A DNA stretch of 64,000 bases, taken from positions 27,024,166 to 27,088,165 of the forward strand of contig CAIIXF020000011.1 in NCBI GenBank assembly GCA_903813345.2, written 5' to 3'. Position numbers and translations under genes: made by a program. Under the pieces are notes generated by a model. It was given only the letters and a program-made list of their open reading frames with translations. It had not been told where the DNA came from and made no database searches. The stretch is from Owenia fusiformis (taxonomy: Eukaryota; Annelida; Polychaeta; Sabellida; Oweniidae). Positions 40,209 through 63,985 of the stretch are shown here, piece after piece (the first letter of the stretch is position 1; every line of letters starts with the position of its first letter).

Positions 40209-43200
40209 ATGAAAGGTGTTGCTCTCATAATAGCTGCTATACTGGCAACAACGGATGGAGTGCTTGGACAAATAGGTACATTAATTTTTTAGAAATCTTA
40301 TTTTTATTAATACAATACTTATACATATAGTACGAAACTGATATTAAGATTAAATATCAAAAAATTGAAATTCAATTTTAAATGTTTTGTAGAAATTAAA
40401 AGATTGACTGGAAGTATTTTCACATTGCCAAAATGTATTTGTAGCATGTGGGGTGGATGTAGTTTTTGCTGTCGATACGTCGTGTATTTTTACCAAGAAA
40501 GAGAAGAGTGTCGTAAAAGATTTCTTATTTGAATTGGTGACTTCATTGGACGAAATCAATCCCATCGGCCGTGACAAAGCGTTGATTCAGATTGCAGCGC
40601 TCACATACAACACAATTGCTGTGAGCAGATTCAACCTTAGCGACTCCACAGACAAAGCCTCGACATTAGGCCTAATCGAACTTTTAAACATGAATAGGAA
40701 TACTGCGGAGGGATGCAAAAGGAAAACCAATTTGGCACTTGAACTTGCGAAAAAGGCATTTCAAAAGACCAACGGTGGACGAAGGAAAGCCAAGCGCGTC
40801 CTTATTCTCATAACTAATGGTCTTACACAACCTTCTAAATTAATGAAAAACGCATTAGCTAATGGTATTAAGAACACTGATGCCAACATTGAAACGTACC
40901 TTATTGGTATATATGATGAAAAGGTAGATCCTAACGAAGCTGATGCGGAGTGGGCTGTTTTGGCTTCCGATCCTGACGATCACCATGTGATGAGTGTTAA
41001 CGGGACAGATATGCTGAAAGAGTTGGTAGATAACATTGCTAAACGAGTGATGTCAGTAACCTGCAATGGTAAGAAGATATTTAATACTACTCGTATATAT
41101 GATAAATGAATGAGATGCGTGATCGGTAATTTCTATGGAGCAGATCCTGGCATGACTGGTATGACAAAACATTATGATCAATCAAAATCTATCATCCTGT
41201 AACTGTTCTAGCTGAAACATGAAGAAATGTGTAAAACTTTATTTTTGATACAAAAATGATGAAAAGTATTGCATTGCGTTGATTACTCTATTTATACTAA
41301 ATATTTATATATCAATCTGTATTTGCGATTGACACTTTATGTAGCATACGATTGTTAATGATTGAGCACACGTGCTGTGTGTTTATTCTCAAATATCAGT
41401 GTAGAGACTACTAGGATTTACGACGAATCGTCACAATAGCAAACAATTAACGTATTTAGGAAGGCATAAAACGTTAATGGAATTCTGTCTGACATTACCA
41501 AGTTCCCTTAGTTTAGGGAAGCTATCCAGTAACTACTGTGCATATTTCTAGATGAAATACCGGCGGATGATCCTTGGTTAGGAACAACATCAACAGCCTC
41601 GACGACAACGTCAACGACAACATCGACAACGTCGACGACAACATCAACAACGTCATCAACAACATCTACTACATCAACGACGCCTGAACCTACAACAATA
41701 CTAACGACACCAGTAACAACTACTACAGTGGCAGCTAACACGCAAATATGTCAGGAAACAAAAGAATGTAAAAAGTTACTCGGTCCAAACTATAACTGCA
41801 CAAATTTTATATGCGGTAATTATTTTTGTCTATTTTGTAGAGTTAATAATTGTGTTATATTATTGGAGGCATATAAGTGACAACAAACCATAAATAAAAT
41901 GTATGTTATGACAAGATCAGATCTGCAATACTCCAGCTTCCATTTAGACGAATCTTTTGCTTTAAAGGGTTCCGATAAGCATCCCGTATAAAAACAATAT
42001 GGCGGCTCCAGGCATATCGACTGGATCAGTCCATTTTTAAGAAATAAGGGGAGTTCTGTAAAATCCAGTTTATTGAAATTGTCTTTGAGATAAAGTAATC
42101 CGTTTATAATGATTTTGAAAACGTTATCCATAGAGTGATTGCGTTCAAACAGTACATGTACAACAGCCAATATAAATCCTTGTATTAGAACTGCTTTGTT
42201 TCATTTGTAGGATATTTCATATGCCAAGCTGTGTGCTATTAGAGTCCATTTCACTGCTTCATTTCGTCAGTAGAACGGCAAATATAAGAAATTGGGAGAC
42301 CATTGTGCAATAATATATGGAAAAGTATATTCATAATGTACATGAATGACATTTGTATATTTTGGATTGCTTCTAGTTTGGCTTATAAAGTGTGTGGCCT
42401 CTTATATTTGAATGTTTCTCCGCCATGTTATTTTCAATAAGATTAACATGGCTGAAATTCTTCAAATTACAAGACGGCACAGGCTTATTGCACAAAAAAC
42501 TAAAAAATCTGAAATATACAGATGTCATTCATGTACATTATGAATATACGTTTCCATATATTATTGCACAATGGTCTCCCAATTTCTTATTTTTGCCGTT
42601 CTACTGACGAAATGAAGCAGTGAAATGGACTCTACGTTATGGGGAAATTTAGATGCCAATTTTTCCTTATTATACACAAATAGAAGATCCTGAAACTTCA
42701 CCCATAAATTTGGAATTGATTTGTCAAAATAAAAATCACCCTTTTATAAATGTGTGACGATCTATAATATACTTATGCTATATAACAGTTAGAGGTGTTG
42801 ACACAACGACATCGAACCTGTGAACCCTTGAGTATTATTCCGGGATCGGGCCTTTTATACTAAACGGTGAGCAACACCAGAAACGAGCGTTCGATTTGCT
42901 AAACGATATGCGTCACCCTTTAAAACACTGTGGAATGTTTCCATGTAACAATATTACTGGGCAGCGTTTAATCATATTAGTATTGACCCTGAAAAATCGA
43001 CTGAACAGCTGAATCGATGTGAACGTGTATATTCATGTATAAATTGCAATTGACAAACCGCGAAAATAATGCCAAATCTGCCAAATATGAAAAATTGCCT
43101 TAATTACAGTCCGTTATTATGACACTTAGATTTGATTTTTTCTTACAGTGCGGGGCGACCCCCACATTCAGCAACTAGTCAAAGGGACAGATGACCCCAT

Positions 43201-49476: not shown

Positions 49477-52400
49477 ATGAGAAGAGTTGCAATCTGTCTT
49501 ATCGCTGTTATTCTGGGATTTGCGGGTATCGATGCTAACGATGAAAGAGGTGAGGACATTCGAGGATTAGATGCATAGTTACTGTTCGGATGAATATTTA
49601 GATTAATTAATATATTTATTGCTGAAGCAAGTATCAAGCGCAATAATCCAAGTACCTGATAAATGAATATTTATTGTATCATTATTTACGCATTTTGCCA
49701 CGATTGTAACGACCCAACTTGATTGCTGATAAAGTGAAACAATTTAATAAAAGTTTCACTATTTCGACTCGTTATTATTTAATATAAGTGATACACATTT
49801 GACGATTCTCTTCTTCTAGCATGTGGGCTGGACCTCGTTCTTGCGATTGACACCTCGTGTAGCTTCATTACTGAGGACAAAATCAAGATGAAGCAGTTCA
49901 TTATCAAGTTTGTTGAATATATTAATGACATCGGACCTGCATTAAGGCAAACCCAGATAGGGATACTGACGTACAATCAAATTACAACTGCGCGATTCTT
50001 TCTTGTTGATTCAAAAGATCTTGCTACACCGTTGGCTCGTATAAAAGAAATCCCGATGAACTTAGAAAAAGAAGAAGGTTGTAAAACAAAAACAAACCAA
50101 GCACTTGAAATGGCAAGAACAGATTTCTTCCAAGAAAGCAAAGGCGATCGTATGACAAATGCTAACGTTTTGACCATAATAACAGATGGTGTGACAATTC
50201 CTAAAAAGTTGTTCAAACAAACACTAAAAGAAAGTGATCTAAACAAGAAGGATGGCATTGAGATGTTTGTTATTGGCGTTTATGGAGATAAAACCAAGAA
50301 TGTCAACACTGAAGAATGGAATAACATGGCCACAGACCCAACAGACTGGCATGTCATCACCATTAATGGAACATCCGGTCTCAGCTACTCTTTAGAAGCA
50401 ATCGTAAGAAGGAAGATGACTGTTGCGTGTTTTCGTATGTGCATCTTCCTCATAAACAACTATGCATACATAGGATAAAATAGCATTTATTCATTTTATT
50501 GTTGAACCCGGTATATATTGTCAAAGTGCTCTTTTACTAATAGACTACGTTCTGTATTTGTAGACAGGCCTCCTGTTGATGATCCTTGGTTGTACCCCAA
50601 TGCTACAAGTAAAACTGCACCCAAAACAACAACCCAAATAACAACAAATCCTACAACAACAACAATGCCAACTATAAACACAGTAACAACAGTAAACCAA
50701 ACATCGACAAACCCAACAACAACAACAACAACATTAAACCAAATAACGACAAAGCACATAGCTAAAACAATAAAAGTAACAACACCAACAAAAACAATTC
50801 CAACAAAAAGTAAAACTACCTTGGACATATCTACAACCGATAGTACAACTATGATCACGACACCCTCCAGGACAACCCCGAAGCTAATGAAACACCAATG
50901 CCAAGGAACAAAGGAGTGCAAGAAGCTGTTAGGTGCAAACTACAATTGTACCAATTTTATGTGTGGTAAGTAGTACCACAAAGTGTATTCGATAGCAATA
51001 ATTACCTATACACCGTCCCTCGACCACTTATTACTAACCTCAAATGTAACCTCAAAAATTCTTATTATTGACGTCAATGTTGTCGTCAATGCACCCTTGC
51101 TGAATTCCTCATTTTCTCAGAATAACTCAAGTTGGTCGAGTTTCAAAAGGTAGATGCATAGTATTGCTAGGATCCATTTTCAAAAGTAAGAATAGGGGTT
51201 CTTAAATAGAACATTGGGCTTGCTTTTTAGAACGTGTGTGGGTACTAACTGTATGAATATCCAATCGAGGTGTATGAAGTATCAATCACACATAGTACAA
51301 CATTGTTAATAAGTCCGCAATCTAAAAAAAGAATGCTTGGTGTCAATATTCTCTACATGATATAATAGTCATAAATGTGCACAAGTGCGGACAAGTTTAG
51401 CAATGGATTTTTCGTGTAGTTGTTTCATTTCATTTTGTCTCCCTCTAATTTAGTGCGAGGTGACCCTCATATTCAGCAACTTGTGAAAGGGACAGATGAC
51501 CCAATATGTTATGACTTGTTTGGAAAACCAGGACAAGTATATGAGTTTTTAACAGAGCTTTCTACAGGTAAAAGTTCCAAAATACGCTAATTATCATATC
51601 GAATTTGAAATATGTAACCGAGAAAGGCATGCAGATTATTATCTTATTATATAATTCCATATTCTTATAAGCATAACCTACTCTCACTGGTGATCTGCTT
51701 GATTACGCTAGTTACCGAAACGGTTCGTTTCTGTAACGAAATGTCAGAACGAGTTTTCTTTTTTCCTTATTTAAGTCATTTTTTTGTCACAAACGTGTAT
51801 CATAATCGTCGATTTAATTCCTCATTTAAGTTACGTAAACGGAACTTCAAAAAACAGTTACGATCTGCACCGTGCTTTTTAACCCGTTCAGTACCTCGTT
51901 GTACGTTGACTTATTGGCTCCCTGGACCTAAGGGTTTATACCTTATTACAAGTTTCTCTTTCGCTTTTATTTGATGTTCATACTTTGTTTTTTTATTATT
52001 TGGCTATGGTGCTCGAATATATGATATTTAAAATGTATGTACTTTTGGTTCAGTTCGTCTCAGTTCATTTCAGTAGAACTACTACATCTAGATCCAGGAT
52101 GCTAAAACATATTTTTAAAGAGTGGCTAAAAATCAAAATTCAAGTTTTGCAAAAAATGGATAAATGTATGTTAAACCATACAAAACTTAATACAATTGCT
52201 GTTACATTAAAAGACATATAACCCTATGAATAAGGAGCATCAAAGTGCACCAGTCACTCACTATTCTTTTCTGTTATTTACATACAGGAACCTTTGTAAC
52301 AGGCGTTTTTATTGAGGGTTCCAATATTGTAAAGTCTGGTGAGCTTGCGAAGTACATTGGGGAGATAGTGGTTAAAACAAATAATCTTACAGTACATGTT

Positions 52401-54875: not shown

Positions 54876-57800
54876 TCATAATTCTGATTTATGATCATTA
54901 TATTTTGTTATAAGGGGTGATTTAATTGGTTTAGGTGTTCCAAATAAAGTCATTTTCGTAACGGGATAGTTCTCCCTAAGAATCCTGTTAAGGATGTATT
55001 GTCCAATATCAGGTCCAAGTAAGTGATATTGCGCAATATATTCTCCTATTTCTTTGGTAGCTTTGATTGCACCCGGAAGCATGGTAGTTTTCATAAATGT
55101 TGCTAGCTGGAATGAGAAATGGACATACATCACAGTTTGACCTGAATCAAGGTATGTGCTTTTTAAACCCAAAACTTCTACCGGCATTGGTTAATGGCTG
55201 TAAACATTTTGTTTTGTTACTGACCTGGGCGTCCTTATTTCTATTTGATAGATCGATTACTTCTTCAATGTTTTCGTATAGCGACTTCTCAATATCCATG
55301 GCTATATACAAGGCTTCAATGCCATTATGGATGCGTAAGTCATGTGGTAGCTGCAAAAAAATGCTGAACATTTGGCTATTGAATTTTTCTCAAATCGATT
55401 TACTGAAGGTTTGGCATTGTTTGTACACTCTTTCTAATATATATAATGTTAAATGTTACATAATTGCTTAAATGAGGTTGCAAATGCGATCAGCATCCTA
55501 ATATGACGATTATGTACTAGAAGGAAATGTATAAGGTTTTATCCCCGAAAGAAATAGTTTTCAAAGGGACATCGGGGACCGGAATGATACATGATTTTTG
55601 CTAAAGAAAATGAATTAAAATAATATGGCATAAATAAAAAATAAATAAATGATATGGCAAAAAATAAAAAAACGGATAAGATTTTTTGCCGATTCTTTGT
55701 AGCAAAATTATTTCGTACAACTACTCTTTACAAAGCAGGACACCTGAAATTATTTGTAAAGCTAGGGAATGGGCCAATAGTGAATTTAGCCAAATGGTCC
55801 AAAGGGGATTTTGCGAGATACGACTGAAAATAAAAAAACGGACATATTTTTTGATTTGGATTACATCAATACCATCCCAAAAGAATCTTCTTATCGAGCC
55901 TCGATCAACTTGAGTTCTTCTGAGATAATGAGGATTTCAGGTCGCGGGGACATACACAATTGATTTAAATACTGCATATCATCATGTCATCATACATGGG
56001 GATAGATACAAATCCATCCTCAGAAGAATCTCAGAGTTGATCAAGCATCAACAAGTACATACAGATTCACGTAGGAGAGTATTGATAGAATCCATTTTCA
56101 ATAGTACGAATATAGGGCTCCTTAAAAGGGACATTAAAGATTAACTAAGGCGTTTTTGAAAATGTGTGTTAGCCCTAGACTGATAGTATATGTCAGTGGT
56201 GTTTCACATCAACTGAGGTTCTATGTACATTCTACCTTCTCGTTAAATTTTTCTCATCTTATTTCAAATTTTAAACACAAAATGTCACACTATTTCTTTA
56301 AAAAATAGCTGTTTCATAGCGTGAGACCATACCCTTAAATTGAGGAATGTTGCCGAGACACCTCTCTTAATCTGGAACTCAGTTAACTTTGCAAAGTTTT
56401 GAGACTTGTAATTAGCGGCAGCTTGGAACATTCCATAGAACCCATCTAGTTCTAGATCTGTCTCAAAGAACCTATAAGCCTAAGATGAGTAAGGTCGTTA
56501 GTTCTCATGAAGCACAAAAATCATCTTCAAATTATGAATGGCGATTCCAATTTCTAATCGATATGAAGGGTATAAACTATTTTAATTGGCTGTCACATAT
56601 AGCCGTGTGGGTCACCGTTCTACACCTTGATGATAATTTCGAGATACAGCGGGTCGTTTCCCACCCGTTGTAAATACTCAGGGAACTTTGCCGGCCATGC
56701 GCATGCTCAAATCTTTAATTCGCCGATCGAATAATATTCGTCTGCGAAGTGTTATCGGGATGGTATCCCCGTGCTGAACTCTGTTTTTTTTAAAGAACAA
56801 TGAAAGGCCGTTCAGCTGACCAGACTATATGTGACAACACCATTAAATAGCCGAGGCACGAATATGAACTTGTGTTAACGTTTAGTACAGCATCACTTAC
56901 TATTCCTACATAGCTGTAGCCTTGCACTATTTGAACATTTGTTAATTCAACCAGCGCATGGTCTAGTAGGGCTGAAGATAAGCACGGCGGAATAGGGGGC
57001 TCACGGGTAACTACAATAACGCAATATTATGATGAATTATGATAAGTGAATTACAGATGCAATCTGGGAAAGACTCGACTAGACGTCTTGATGATTTAAC
57101 GATTGACAGCCAAAATTACTACAATACGTTCTGAAACTTATCGCATCTTAATGTTTCACTTGACACGAATGATGTAGGATTCTTTATTGCAATTCAAACA
57201 TGACCCTGGGTCAATAAGGAGGATGTACACAAAATATCTACTGAGATTGTGTAGCTTTGGATTTATTAATCTAATTAAATAAGTAAATGCATAATTATAA
57301 TTTTCCCTCGGTTATTTAGAAACAAAGGACGATTCTCGGTTTGGAGAACGAAGTTCATCAATCTAAATGAGCATTATCCCTGCTTCGGACAAATTTGATT
57401 TTTTTACATAATATAGATTTGAATGTCTTCTTTTGAATAGTCATAATTTAATTTGGGTAATATTTCTAGATTTTTCGCAAAAAAATATTAGCGCAGTACA
57501 CTGATGAACTTCTTTCCCCAAATCGAGACTTGTATTTTATTGAATCGGTCAAATTGAGCCTTATCCCTGCTTCAGACCAATTTGTTATTTTTACATCTTG
57601 TATATTTAAATGTCCTCTTTTGAATATTCATAGTTTAATTTGAGTAATATTTCTATATTTTTCATTAAAAAAATTATTAGCCCAGGAGACTGTTCTCCAA
57701 ACCGAGAATCGTCCTTTCTGTGGGTCAAGTTCAGATAATTCTGATCTCTTTTTGAACTGTGTGTTACAACAGTATCCATTCTATTCATCAGTTGGATCAT

Positions 57801-60800
57801 ATATAAATCACTCACTTCATCCATTGACAACTCCCAGGTCACCATTTACATCTGTAAGATGTTTTCTTAATGATATTGAATTTGATGACAGCTCTCCCCT
57901 TAGCAGGACAAGTTTGTTCAAAATATAGGGTTGTTGAGGTGCAATTGATATTCATTTGAAAATCATGAGGTTTATTTAGCAAAATATAAATGAAAGTAAA
58001 ATTATTGATTTGATGCTGAGTTTGCAGAAATACTATAATAACTTAGTTGGAAGATCATTGCATTAACTGAAATTACCACATAGATGATATGGCGTCACAG
58101 GAGACCGTCATGCGTAAAAACGTCCACAGTTGATTGAGGTAGGCCTATTATGGGCTGAAATCCTTTGATAACAACAAATTAACATTGTTCAAATACCTTT
58201 GCAGTTACTTCCCGGGTTCCGAATACAGCCCTCGTCCAAACATTTACCCATCAATACAGCTAAGAATGGCCACATCATTGTCTAAAACAAAACCGTTGCG
58301 ATAACAGACAAATACAGTAAAGACCTTCGTAAGGTGAGTGAGAACATTTTAAGACGGAGTATGGCGTTTTGATAACTATGAAAATTTTTACTTGACATAT
58401 ATTTTTTATGTTTTGATGTTTCTTCTTTAACTAAAATACTACTTCTAATATCAGAGAGTACCCATGCTCAAACGCAACAAAACATTGATACGTGTTCTTG
58501 AACACGCGGCCGGTATTATAATTATTTGACTCACCCGATCTAATCCCGGCTCCACAAACATATAATCACATCCACAACACAACCGTTCCGGAGCACATGG
58601 GATTTTGTCAGATGTACACGACTTGTAAGCTAGAACATAGAAAATGTGTAATTATACACGCACATTCTTTGGAAAGTTTGGAAATAAATAATCCATTATC
58701 AACACTAAAATTTGGGATCCGGTGACCACATCGAACTGAATTATATTTTCAAGCCTGTACAACTTTTATTGTCAAATCTCTTACAAATAGATGTTCGTAA
58801 GCGATTTAAATGACCCTTGTTTCCCAAGATGTAATTTCCGTCACTTTTGACAGACAATTTTTGCATTACGGAAAGTCAGGCTAGAGATACAAGTACCATA
58901 GTGCAAAATTCAGCATTTTTAATTAATTATCTATTCTGTAGTACTCTTAAATAAATTTATGATGATTCAGTAAAGCATATTGAGTGCCGCTGTGACTGCA
59001 ATATGGAAGACAATTTTGGAATTTTCATGTTTATTTTTTGTCGCTCACAGCACACCTTGTGTCAATTTAAGTCTCTAACTCCACGAGAAAAAAAAATTTC
59101 AATTAGATCATGTCATTTTGTTATAGGAAATGATTTATCCTTAACATGATATACGTATAATACATGGCATGGTTTAACACATAATATGAATCATTCTTCT
59201 TTATACTTAGGTATTGTTTTTTTGGCCCACTCTGTATATAGAACGTGTTTATTACATAAGCAGCCTTGGAATTAAATTTATATTATTTGCATATAATTGA
59301 GGTTTGCTCTTCTTGCCTAATTACTACCTTAGAACTATGATGCAACCGTGTAAATTATACCGTGGAATTTAACTAAACGTATCAACTTTTTATTGAGGTG
59401 ATATTGAAATTATCAACCGAATGGTAAAATTCTAGACTAAGATATACTATTTTATTTATTTTTTTAAATCGTATATACATATCAGTAATAATGACACCCT
59501 AACGGGTATATGACTTATCACAAGCTAAAAATATTTATAAAATGGCATAATTTTAGTTACATTTGTTATTGATTTTACAAAGTGTCTCAAAGTATAAATT
59601 ATGTAAGCTAAACTGGGAAACAAATAAATATGATGTATAAAAAGATACTTGTTAACAAAGCACACACAATACGGTTGGGAATTGAGTGTTACAAGATAAG
59701 ATTATTTCAAATCGGGATTTCAGCCCTCTTTGTGGTCATACCTCCTTAAATATTACCCCAATTGTATCAAAAGTGTTGTATTGTATTGCTTAAAATTGTA
59801 CACCAGCTAAATGGCCACAACCTTAATATCGACGAATCATGTTTCGGCTCTTTTAAGTCAAAACTCTAAATAAGTACTCATCAATCTACTTGCTTCAAAC
59901 TATACAGCTACCTTGTTTCATAGGTATCAATAATAATGTCTACAGGTTTCGGCAAAATATGTTTGAAATCCAAAATGGCTGTCGCATTTGAAATCAAAAT
60001 ATTACTTACTCCGAAAGTATTTCATTGATTTTGTTTGAATATATAAGCACTAGTGCCAAAGGGAAAGGACCAAAAGTTGTAGTGGAACTTAGCAAAAAAA
60101 GCAAACTCTAAGTGCATACCAGTAAAGAAAAACAAACCCCATATAGCCAAAAACCATGGTCTAACGTGAAAAGAAACAATGTATAATACCCCCTTTCCCC
60201 ACCATTCAAGAACCAATATCACAATCCAAGACCAGAAGACCAAGGGACCAAATTAGGACCAGATTAATTAAAACCAAATTAAGACCAAATTAATGAAGTT
60301 GCACAGGTAGTTGTATCATATGTAGTTGTATATAAACAGAAATGCCTCGAATGCATTTTCACTATGTGAGCAATGGAACTACTTATTCATTTGTATATAT
60401 GAACATGTAGTTTTAAACAAGGTTGAAGGAAGTATATTTGTTTGAACGAATTTTGTTTACTTTTACTTTACTGATTGTGTTCACCAAAAATAACTTTTCC
60501 TACAGTGCATTTGGGAGACTAACGGTTGAAAAATTTAGAATAAAAACAAAATGTGAACGAAAACTTAATGAGATTTAAGGTCATATTATGTTAAATAAGA
60601 TGTAATTTACTTACTGTCACACATAACTTTCATGACTGGATTAACAAGTGTAACATATTTCTCCAAGTCCTCTACAAAGAATCTATATTTACTAAAGGGA
60701 TTGCTTGCTAGTTGTTCCCATTCATCCATAGCCCTGATCTGCTCCTCTGTTCGGAAAACCTCTGTTGTTGTGGGATAGGCTGAGGTAGTAGGTGGGGATG

Positions 60801-61739
60801 TGTAATTAGTGGTATCATTCGTAGGTGCTGCAGTTGTTGGTGAGGCAGTTGTATTGGTATCAGGTTCTAAAAATCCGAGGACTAAAATTTCAGCTCCAAT
60901 CTTTTTCAGTTCCTCAGCTTCGATGATCGCCTGTCGTGAGTAAGCTGAAGGCCATGTGGCTCCACTGGTGATCAAAATGATTGTATTCGCAAACTCATTC
61001 CCTACCCTGTCCCCTTGTTCAATGTTAAAATATCGATGACGGATAGAATTCAATACAAGATCTGTTCGACGGAAACAAAGGTCCGGCTGGTTTAGCTCCA
61101 TGTAGCGTATGACGTTCCGCAACTCAAAATTATCAGTTGCCTCTTCGAAATACATCCTATGATAGTAACTATTACTATACACAACGAAACCGACTCGGGT
61201 GCCATAAGCACCGGGGTCGATGTACAGCCTGGCAGTTAATTCACGGACAAAGCTCCTGATTAGTTTCTTAGATCGGTTCGAGACGAAACATGATATATCA
61301 ATGGCAAATACAAGATCCCTGGGACAACGTAGAGGTTTGTGACAATCCGTGTCATCTCCTGGAACAGAATGAAACCGAGATAGCTTTGTCAAAATATGAT
61401 GCAAAGGAAACGTAGACTGATAAGTAAATGATCAAAGCTGAATGTTAAATATATGCTTTACATGAATTCGTACAGGATTCATAAAAAACAACAACAAATA
61501 TTACATAGTACAATAACTGTGTAAACATGTAAATTATAATTTAACCTACTTATTTCGATCTTTGATATAGTATCAATACTCATGGGTTAGATAAAAGGCG
61601 CATAAGCGAAGTAAGATGAAAAATACGCACCAAAAATCACAACGTCCTCTGTATCTTCTGGCCTCTCATACCTAGAACTCCCACAGATACTTACACAACA
61701 CACCAATAGAAACCCTACAACTAATATGGAGTTATCCAT
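54876..61739 (-). CDS. Gene C: predicted secreted vWA - ferritin-like fusion ending KSEL
   Basis: Eight minus-strand exons: 61739-61631, 61358-60615, 58629-58535, 58281-58197, 56962-56901, 56479-56333, 55350-55225 and 55106-54876. All introns are GT-AG, phases are 1,1,0,1,0,0,0, and the total is 1599 nt (532 aa). Order: signal peptide MDNSILVVGFLLVCCVSICG; vWA about 38-284 with a Thr/Pro insert (EPDTNTTASPT...) inside the domain; Cys-rich linker 285-344 (SCTSDKIPC, LCCGCDY, GKCLDEGC); ferritin-like four-helix domain about 345-505 (VQGYSYVGIAYRFFETD, ALYIAMDIEKSL, AQYHLLGPDIGQYIL); C-terminal tail ending KSEL. The MIDAS is degraded (DISCF, ITSG). Ferroxidase positions are mostly lost. The alternative is two genes, with the ferritin part starting at MMWPFLAVLM in exon 4. 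The fusion is favoured because no stop ends the vWA part and every phase fits. Confidence 0.7.
57170..57895. repeat. Dispersed repeat, copy 2 (interrupted)
   Basis: 57170-57324 and 57718-57895 together correspond to 13750-14180. The junction AGAAACAAA ... CTGTGGGTCAAGTTCA equals AGAAACAAAATCCTGTGGTT in copy 1. The 0.39-kb element sits in between. All of it lies in intron 4 of gene C. Confidence 0.65.
57325..57717. mobile_element. Element with 27-bp TIRs and two ~190-bp internal tandem units, in gene C intron 4
   Basis: The ends are AAAGGACGATTCTCGGTTTG and its complement (CAAACCGAGAATCGTCCTTT). The interior is a tandem pair: each unit has a GAG(C/A)xTTATCCCTGCTTC block, a TTGAATGTC/TTAAATGTCCTCTTTTGAATA stretch and TTTAATTTG(G/A)GTAATATTTCTA. 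The flanks match the uninterrupted repeat at 13750-14180, so this is an insertion into an older repeat. Confidence 0.75.
58630..60614. other. Intron 2 of gene C, ~2 kb
   Basis: Joins the vWA exon (phase 1) to the Cys-rich exon. AT-rich, with a small imperfect tandem of ACCAAATTAGGACC type near 60240-60295 and a degenerate TIR-like end (GGCCCACTCTGTATA) near 59223. No additional coding exon was recognised. Confidence 0.5.
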
Positions 61740-62694: not shown

Positions 62695-63985
62695 TCACAA
62701 TTCGGTTTTATTATCAACGTCGTTTGTTTTCGCAGAGGATTTCATTTTTCTAGGTATTCCAAATAAATTGACATTTCCGATGGGATATTTTTCCCTAAGA
62801 ATCTTGTTGAGGATGTATTCTCCAATATCAGGTCCTAGTAAATGATATTGTGCAATATATTGTGCTACTTCTTTCCTGGCTTTAATCGACCCTGGTAGTA
62901 TGGTCTTTTTCATAAATCCTGCTAACTGAAAAGAAAGAAAAAACATTTCCTTTAGAACTTATTTTGGCGTATTTGCATTGTCTCTTTATTCCTTTACCAA
63001 AGTTTTCAATAACATCTAAATTAAACAGTATCTCTTGGCATTTTTGGAAAATTGAAAAAATACTCTAGGCAGATCGAATCACTCACCTCCGCATCGTTAT
63101 GTCTCTCGGATAATGCAATTACTTCTTCCATACCTTCAAATAACAGTTTCTCAATATCCATGGCTATATACAAGGCCTCAACGCCATTGTTGATACGTAA
63201 GTTATTAGGTAGCTATAACAAATTTAAAGTAAAGCATATAGTAAGTTTACAAAATTACTAACGTACTGACTCTTCGTCAGGGTATGTGTAGCTACATGTG
63301 TACAACAGTTGAATATACAGTAAGTAGGCCTCCAAATGTCTCTTGCGAAGCATAGCCCAAGAAAAGGACGGAAAATTGTTTCGATGTCATCCTTGCTGTG
63401 TGAGTCACTATAGGAGCTGCATCTGCAACAAGAGTAGTATGCAACGACAGGACAGTACCGGATTGCATAATTACCCTACTGTACCTTACATTTGGTGTCC
63501 TCTAAATTCTAGTCTTAACCTTGCGATGCCGTTTACATTGCTTACAACTTTTTATATTCTGAGGGCCTTCTCATTCCTTAATAATACATAAGCCAAATTC
63601 TTGGCAGTAAAGAGAAATATTGTTGTTTTAACTAAACTTTAAAACATGATTGACATCTTGCTTTCATTGCATCCTAAAGTATCAGAATGAACAAAAATAT
63701 ACATAAGAGGTAAATAGCATAAAAATTATTCAGCCAATAAATTTGCTTGTATCATCATCTGAAATATTTTCCATCAAATTCCCTCTATGCTTTTTTAAAA
63801 TTGTTTTCATAATCTGATTATAGTGTACGTAAGTATACCTTCAGATTGAAGAAAGTTGCCGAGACTCCCCTCTTTATCTGAAACTCAGTCATTTTTGCAA
63901 AATTGGCTCCCTTGTAATTAGACGCAGCTTGGAACATCCCAAAGAATCCATCTAAGTCCAGATCTGTCTCAAAGAACCTGTAAGC
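62695..63985 (-). CDS. Gene D: ferritin-like protein, 3' part, ending KTEL (5' end beyond the window)
   Basis: Three exons are visible: 63985-63839 (an acceptor at 63987-63986 is inferred from gene C; otherwise the exon runs off the window), 63212-63087 and 62925-62695. The last three exon lengths equal those of gene C (147, 126 and 231 nt), and the phases are all 0. The protein reads AYRFFETDLDLDGFFGMFQA, then VEALYIAMDIEKLLFEGMEE and AQYHLLGPDIGEYILNKILR, and ends NKTEL. This is helices A-end to E of a ferritin fold plus a C-terminal tail. Ferroxidase residues are missing as in C. A tandem paralogue on the same strand; whether it also carries a vWA part upstream cannot be seen here. Confidence 0.75.

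Follow-up and report, generated by a model that had tools for sequence, protein, structure and literature searches.

A four-copy gene family in Owenia fusiformis that joins a vWA domain to a ferritin fold in one predicted secretory-pathway protein

We describe a gene in the annelid Owenia fusiformis whose predicted product combines a signal peptide, a vWA domain, a cysteine-rich module and a ferritin fold in a single reading frame. The gene, here called c1, lies on the minus strand at positions 61739-54876 of the window, the 64,000-nucleotide stretch of contig CAIIXF020000011.1 that was analysed. The same architecture occurs four times in the 498 Mb genome (c1, c2, c3 and c4), and all four copies could be modelled completely. 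We have high confidence that the gene is a genuine fusion and is expressed as a single protein. Each half has a known fold; the combination appears to be undescribed. No description of a vWA-ferritin protein was found in open-access papers, and two shell-matrix papers that contain both words describe no fusion. Within that literature, the statement of a preliminary description, made from the sequence alone, that no described protein of this architecture was known to it stands.

The eight exons of c1 are bounded by AG and GT throughout and splice into one open frame of 548 amino acids plus a stop, and the rebuilt minus-strand gene bears out the single frame of eight GT-AG exons proposed at the outset. 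Exon 1 (61631-61739, minus strand, as are all c1 exons below) supplies the start codon and a hydrophobic signal peptide (MDNSILVVGFLLVCCVSICG...) and leaves in phase 1. Exon 2 (60615-61358), entered and left in phase 1, encodes the vWA domain, which carries a Thr/Pro-rich insert as well as N-glycosylation sequons. The cysteine-rich module is divided between exon 3 (58535-58629; KSCTSDKIPCAPERLCCGC...; phase 1 in, phase 0 out) and exon 4 (58197-58281; TMMWPFLAVLMGKCLDEGCIRNPGSNCK; phase 0 in, phase 1 out). A linker, the last conserved cysteine and ferritin helix A follow in exon 5 (56901-57010), ferritin helix A/B in exon 6 (56333-56479; 147 bp) and helix C in exon 7 (55225-55350; 126 bp). Exon 8 (54876-55106) completes the protein with helices D and E, a variable tail, a C-terminal KSEL and the stop. 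The phases at 60615/58629 (1), 58535/58281 (0) and 58197 (1) are those originally read. The length had been put at 532 codons, and the 16-residue gap to the 548-residue protein comes from the start of exon 5. An acceptor had been placed at 56962, which is probably wrong; a conserved acceptor precedes position 57010. The AG of the former (CTACTAG/ACC) is missing from the tandem copy c2 (CTGTTGAAAC), and we rejected that start. Exon 5 is placed at 57010 because it is then 110 bp long in both c1 and c2 and because a block of c1/c2 DNA similarity covers 57019-56893.

The second copy, c2, is the tandem neighbour upstream of c1. Its exons 6 to 8 fall in the window at 63985-62695, likewise on the minus strand: exon 6 at 63839-63985 (147 bp), exon 7 at 63087-63212 (126 bp) and the last exon, with helices D and E and a C-terminal KTEL, at 62695-62925. 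Exons 1-5 of c2 lie outside the window (L005) and reach about C11:27091539. The divergent copies c3 (approximately C11:11224757-11228952) and c4 (approximately C11:11231377-11238849) are located 16 Mb from c1 and c2. All four have eight exons with intron phases 1,1,0,1,0,0,0. Each encodes a hydrophobic N-terminus followed by one vWA domain and a ferritin domain, in a frame of 522-562 amino acids with no internal stop or frameshift. Identity to c1 is 83% (c2), 56% (c3) and 35% (c4) in the vWA-cysteine part, and 72%, 48% and 39%, respectively, in the ferritin part. Exon 4 measures 85 bp in all four copies, and exon 3 measures 95 bp in c1-c3 and 86 bp in c4. Ten cysteines lie between the end of the vWA domain and the ferritin domain in each copy; exons 3, 4 and 5 contribute five, three and one, respectively, of the nine cysteine columns that align across the family. 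The Thr/Pro-rich insert within the vWA exon is present in c1 and c2, which also have several N-glycosylation sequons, and is missing from c3 and c4. A genome search found no further copy of the cysteine module, with clear exon 3 matches at the four loci only. One candidate for a fifth module, at C9:4602047 (E 0.01), contains two internal stops and has no convincing match to the remaining protein within the surrounding 10 kb, and was taken as a chance match. The last intron of c4 contains a low-complexity repeat of about 1.1 kb (units such as GCAATACAAT and GCAGT; L053, 4500-5600).

Alignment of the c1 and c2 DNA yields eight similarity blocks that correspond to the eight exons and to nothing else, the introns having diverged beyond alignment. 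Beyond the exons, the blocks take in no more than a few bases of the splice sites, and that of exon 1 covers its start only. Because the conserved blocks coincide with the eight exons only, the eight-exon structure of c1 is far beyond chance. The dN/dS ratio between c1 and c2 is 0.14 overall and below 0.35 in every exon (0.107 in exon 2, 0.031 in exon 3 and 0.152 in exon 4). In comparisons of c1 with c3 or c4, silent substitutions approach saturation, and the fusion is therefore old. These observations also bear on whether the copies could be decaying pseudogenes or an assembly artefact. Both metal sites, in the ferritin and in the vWA domain, are degraded (see below), as decay would have it. 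However, four long frames uninterrupted by stops or frameshifts, the low dN/dS in all exons and the 16 Mb separation of copies whose introns have diverged all argue against this explanation, which we regard as scarcely credible.

The junction between exons 3 and 4 deserves separate attention, since the locus might instead comprise two genes: a secreted vWA protein encoded by exons 1-3, and a secreted ferritin starting with MMWPFLAVLMG in exon 4. In c1 and c2, exon 4 does begin with ACA-ATG-ATG followed by a short hydrophobic run that looks like a signal peptide, and a stand-alone ferritin with a cysteine-bearing N-terminus is found on C5. However, this start is not conserved, as exon 4 opens with ALMLPFVAV in c3 and SLVYPLMAQ in c4. 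The exon 4 acceptor is conserved, with c1/c2 similarity extending 11 bp into it, but the sequence further upstream is not. On the basis of c3, c4 and the conserved acceptor, we rejected MMWPFLAV as an internal start. On the other side of the intron, exon 3 has a conserved donor at its end without a conserved stop, and conserved cysteines are present on both sides of the junction. Reading through the donor of exon 2 or exon 3 produces short tails that are different in every copy, so that no shared terminus of a separate vWA protein emerges. As these read-through ends are unconserved and skipping exon 3 breaks the c1 reading frame, exon 3 can hardly serve as a terminal exon, judging from the genomic sequence. 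Between exons 2 and 4 of c1 there are six poly(A) signals, the same as shuffled sequences give. We consider the two-gene arrangement very improbable, and the patterns around the junction suggest that a fusion message is strongly favoured over separate messages. The locus might still give alternative products, for example from an additional promoter or by trans-splicing to exon 4.

Both halves of the protein were recognised by Pfam. With exons 1-3 of c1 as the query, VWA was matched at E 9.5e-14 over residues 51-223, and Ferritin was matched at E 5.6e-8 over residues 47-181 of the part encoded by exons 4-8. The scores for c1, c3 and c4 were 52.4, 61.7 and 66 bits for the vWA family PF00092 (curated cut-off 23.8 bits) and 33.3, 37.7 and 44.6 bits for the ferritin family PF00210 (curated cut-off 24.5 bits), thus above the cut-off in each case. 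For comparison with known proteins, profiles were built from all four copies. The vWA profile matches integrin alpha-1 (1.9e-10), collagen VI and mussel proximal thread matrix protein 1 (PTMP1, 4cn8; 7.9e-8), and the ferritin profile matches animal ferritins over approximately 150 residues with a best E value of 7.4e-25. For the cysteine-rich module, Pfam gave no match at thresholds up to E 10. The originally proposed succession of signal peptide, vWA domain, cysteine-rich linker and ferritin fold in a single-frame gene is supported.

The alignment with collagen VI, integrin alpha-1 and PTMP1 covers most of the vWA domain, but the fusion copies differ from these proteins at the metal site. Their MIDAS motif reads DISCF, DTSCF or DTSCN, with the first Asp and first Ser kept and the second Ser replaced by Phe or Asn. 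The MIDAS Thr is also kept, and the later Asp is replaced by Ser, Asn or Thr, so that a complete MIDAS (DxSxS, Thr, Asp) is absent from the fusion vWA domains. Because the MIDAS is incomplete, integrin-type metal-dependent adhesion appears doubtful for this domain, and the replacement of the Ser and Asp weakens the earlier suggestion of a metal-binding module. To our knowledge, no ferritin domain occurs in collagen VI, integrin alpha-1 or PTMP1. The genome contains about 150 or more vWA-encoding stretches. On the plus strand of the window, a vWA exon at 49813-50301 is 29% identical to the fusion vWA and continues into a Thr-rich stretch and then a different Cys-rich end, and another at 40441-40911 is 26% identical; no ferritin exons were found near either. 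Elsewhere, at C1:37812283-37866941, near-identical vWA exons recur densely, about every 1.9 kb, and apparently form a tandem multi-vWA gene or gene array.

The ferritin half retains exons of ordinary ferritin type. Its phase-0 exons of 147 and 126 bp are found at the same positions in the canonical ferritin gene on C5; in c3, the 147-bp exon is three bases shorter (144 bp). The ferritin gene on C6 has its outer borders in common with the fusion exons and lacks the middle intron. Since the ordinary ferritin intron positions are kept in the fusion, we infer that this half was contributed by an ordinary intron-bearing ferritin gene, not by a retrocopy. A search of viral contigs found no related ferritin domain. 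Two ferritin loci have features of their own. At C5:24928918 (L004), a stand-alone ferritin with 147/126 bp exons carries a cysteine-bearing N-terminal extension and is possibly a separate secreted ferritin. At C4:26367063 (L003), a ferritin exon spans the position that holds an intron in other ferritin genes, and the adjoining open frame of 433 amino acids gives the impression, though only that, of part of a retroelement.

Helices A-E of the fusion copies can be aligned with those of animal ferritins (PF00210; PDB 6lpd, 6lij). Unlike these, the fusion ferritins sit behind a vWA domain and a cysteine-rich module, have a long tail ending in xxEL, have E27, E62 and H65 replaced, and contain Pro-Gly in helix D. 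In H-ferritin numbering, the ferroxidase ligands of c1-c4 are E27Q, Y34 (kept), E62K, H65N/A and E107 (kept), and the Q141 position is A, S, Q and S across the four copies. The complete H-type set (E27, Y34, E62, H65, E107, Q141) is found in none of them, with three of the six ligands replaced in every copy. In helix D, an invariant Leu-Pro-Gly takes the place of the x-Glu-Gln seen in canonical ferritins, among them two from this genome, and the E134 position of the 3-fold pore is Lys or Arg. Because the ferroxidase ligands are replaced, iron oxidation by the fusion ferritin is predicted to be unlikely. The signs for cage assembly point both ways: the helix D Pro-Gly and the basic pore residue are against it, and the conserved residues of helix E are for it. 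Judged from these residues, a classical ferritin cage is doubtful. Light-chain ferritin lacks a ferroxidase centre and has a Lys at position 62 facing Glu107. The fusion copies resemble it in having Lys 62 with Glu107 and in the loss of the ferroxidase centre, but they differ in being secretory and multidomain and at pore positions; a separate origin is likely.

At the C-terminus, c1, c2, c3 and c4 end in KSEL, KTEL, QVEL and NDEL, respectively. All four thus combine an xxEL ending with a hydrophobic N-terminus, and the residues preceding EL cannot be aligned among the copies. Of the four, only KTEL is documented as a KDEL variant in PMC9326092: it has reduced receptor affinity, as in AGR2, a protein that is ER-resident as well as secreted. 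The fusion proteins share with AGR2 a signal peptide and a C-terminal xxEL, which in c2 is exactly KTEL, but their domains are unrelated to it. It is plausible that KSEL, QVEL and NDEL also act as retrieval signals, weaker or unproven ones. The protein was first predicted to be secreted; the N-terminal signal peptide agrees with this, but simple secretion is weakened by the xxEL ending in all four copies. Because of these tails, we describe the fusion proteins as belonging to the secretory pathway and possibly ER-retrieved, rather than as simply secreted.

A role can be proposed from these features. A gene for a secreted vWA protein would have acquired an intron-bearing ferritin gene at its downstream end. 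The fusion protein would enter the ER via its signal peptide, and disulfides formed by the cysteine module may hold the vWA and ferritin domains in a fixed arrangement. The vWA domain would recognise another protein without the help of a canonical metal site. As in light-chain ferritin, the ferritin fold would not be an iron store; it would act as a helical bundle that is stable or associates with itself. Finally, the xxEL tail may slow or prevent secretion through KDEL-receptor retrieval. This role is tentative and could well prove mistaken. The explanation as a whole, in which the gene weighs more than the role, is probably right.

The preliminary description had envisaged a ferritin cage subunit, possibly giving a shell decorated with vWA domains. 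Ferritin N-termini are on the cage exterior, which makes an N-terminal fusion sterically possible, and the ferritin fold is conserved down to its helix E residues; both points favour a working cage that displays vWA domains on its outside. Against it stand the three ferroxidase ligands replaced in each copy, the invariant Pro-Gly that replaces the canonical Glu-Gln in helix D, the Lys or Arg at the E134 pore position and the incomplete MIDAS. We therefore judge a working cage unlikely, and as an iron store it is further undercut by the combination of E27Q, E62K, H65N/A, the helix D Pro-Gly and the basic 3-fold pore residue. A comparably small chance is given to a lineage-specific conversion of ferritin into a non-iron scaffold, which would form a partly ER-retained, disulfide-stabilised shell or smaller oligomer with many vWA domains facing outward. 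On the residues and tails described above, the protein seems more likely to be a structural adaptor acting in the secretory pathway than an iron-storing, vWA-decorated cage.

Ferritins are usually compact single-domain subunits, and open-access papers yielded no description of one that is naturally fused to an extracellular domain of the adhesion type. The conserved family of four, with its disabled iron centre, would be a case in which the secretory pathway uses the ferritin fold for something other than storage. It would also offer a counterpart in nature to the ferritin particles engineered for display.
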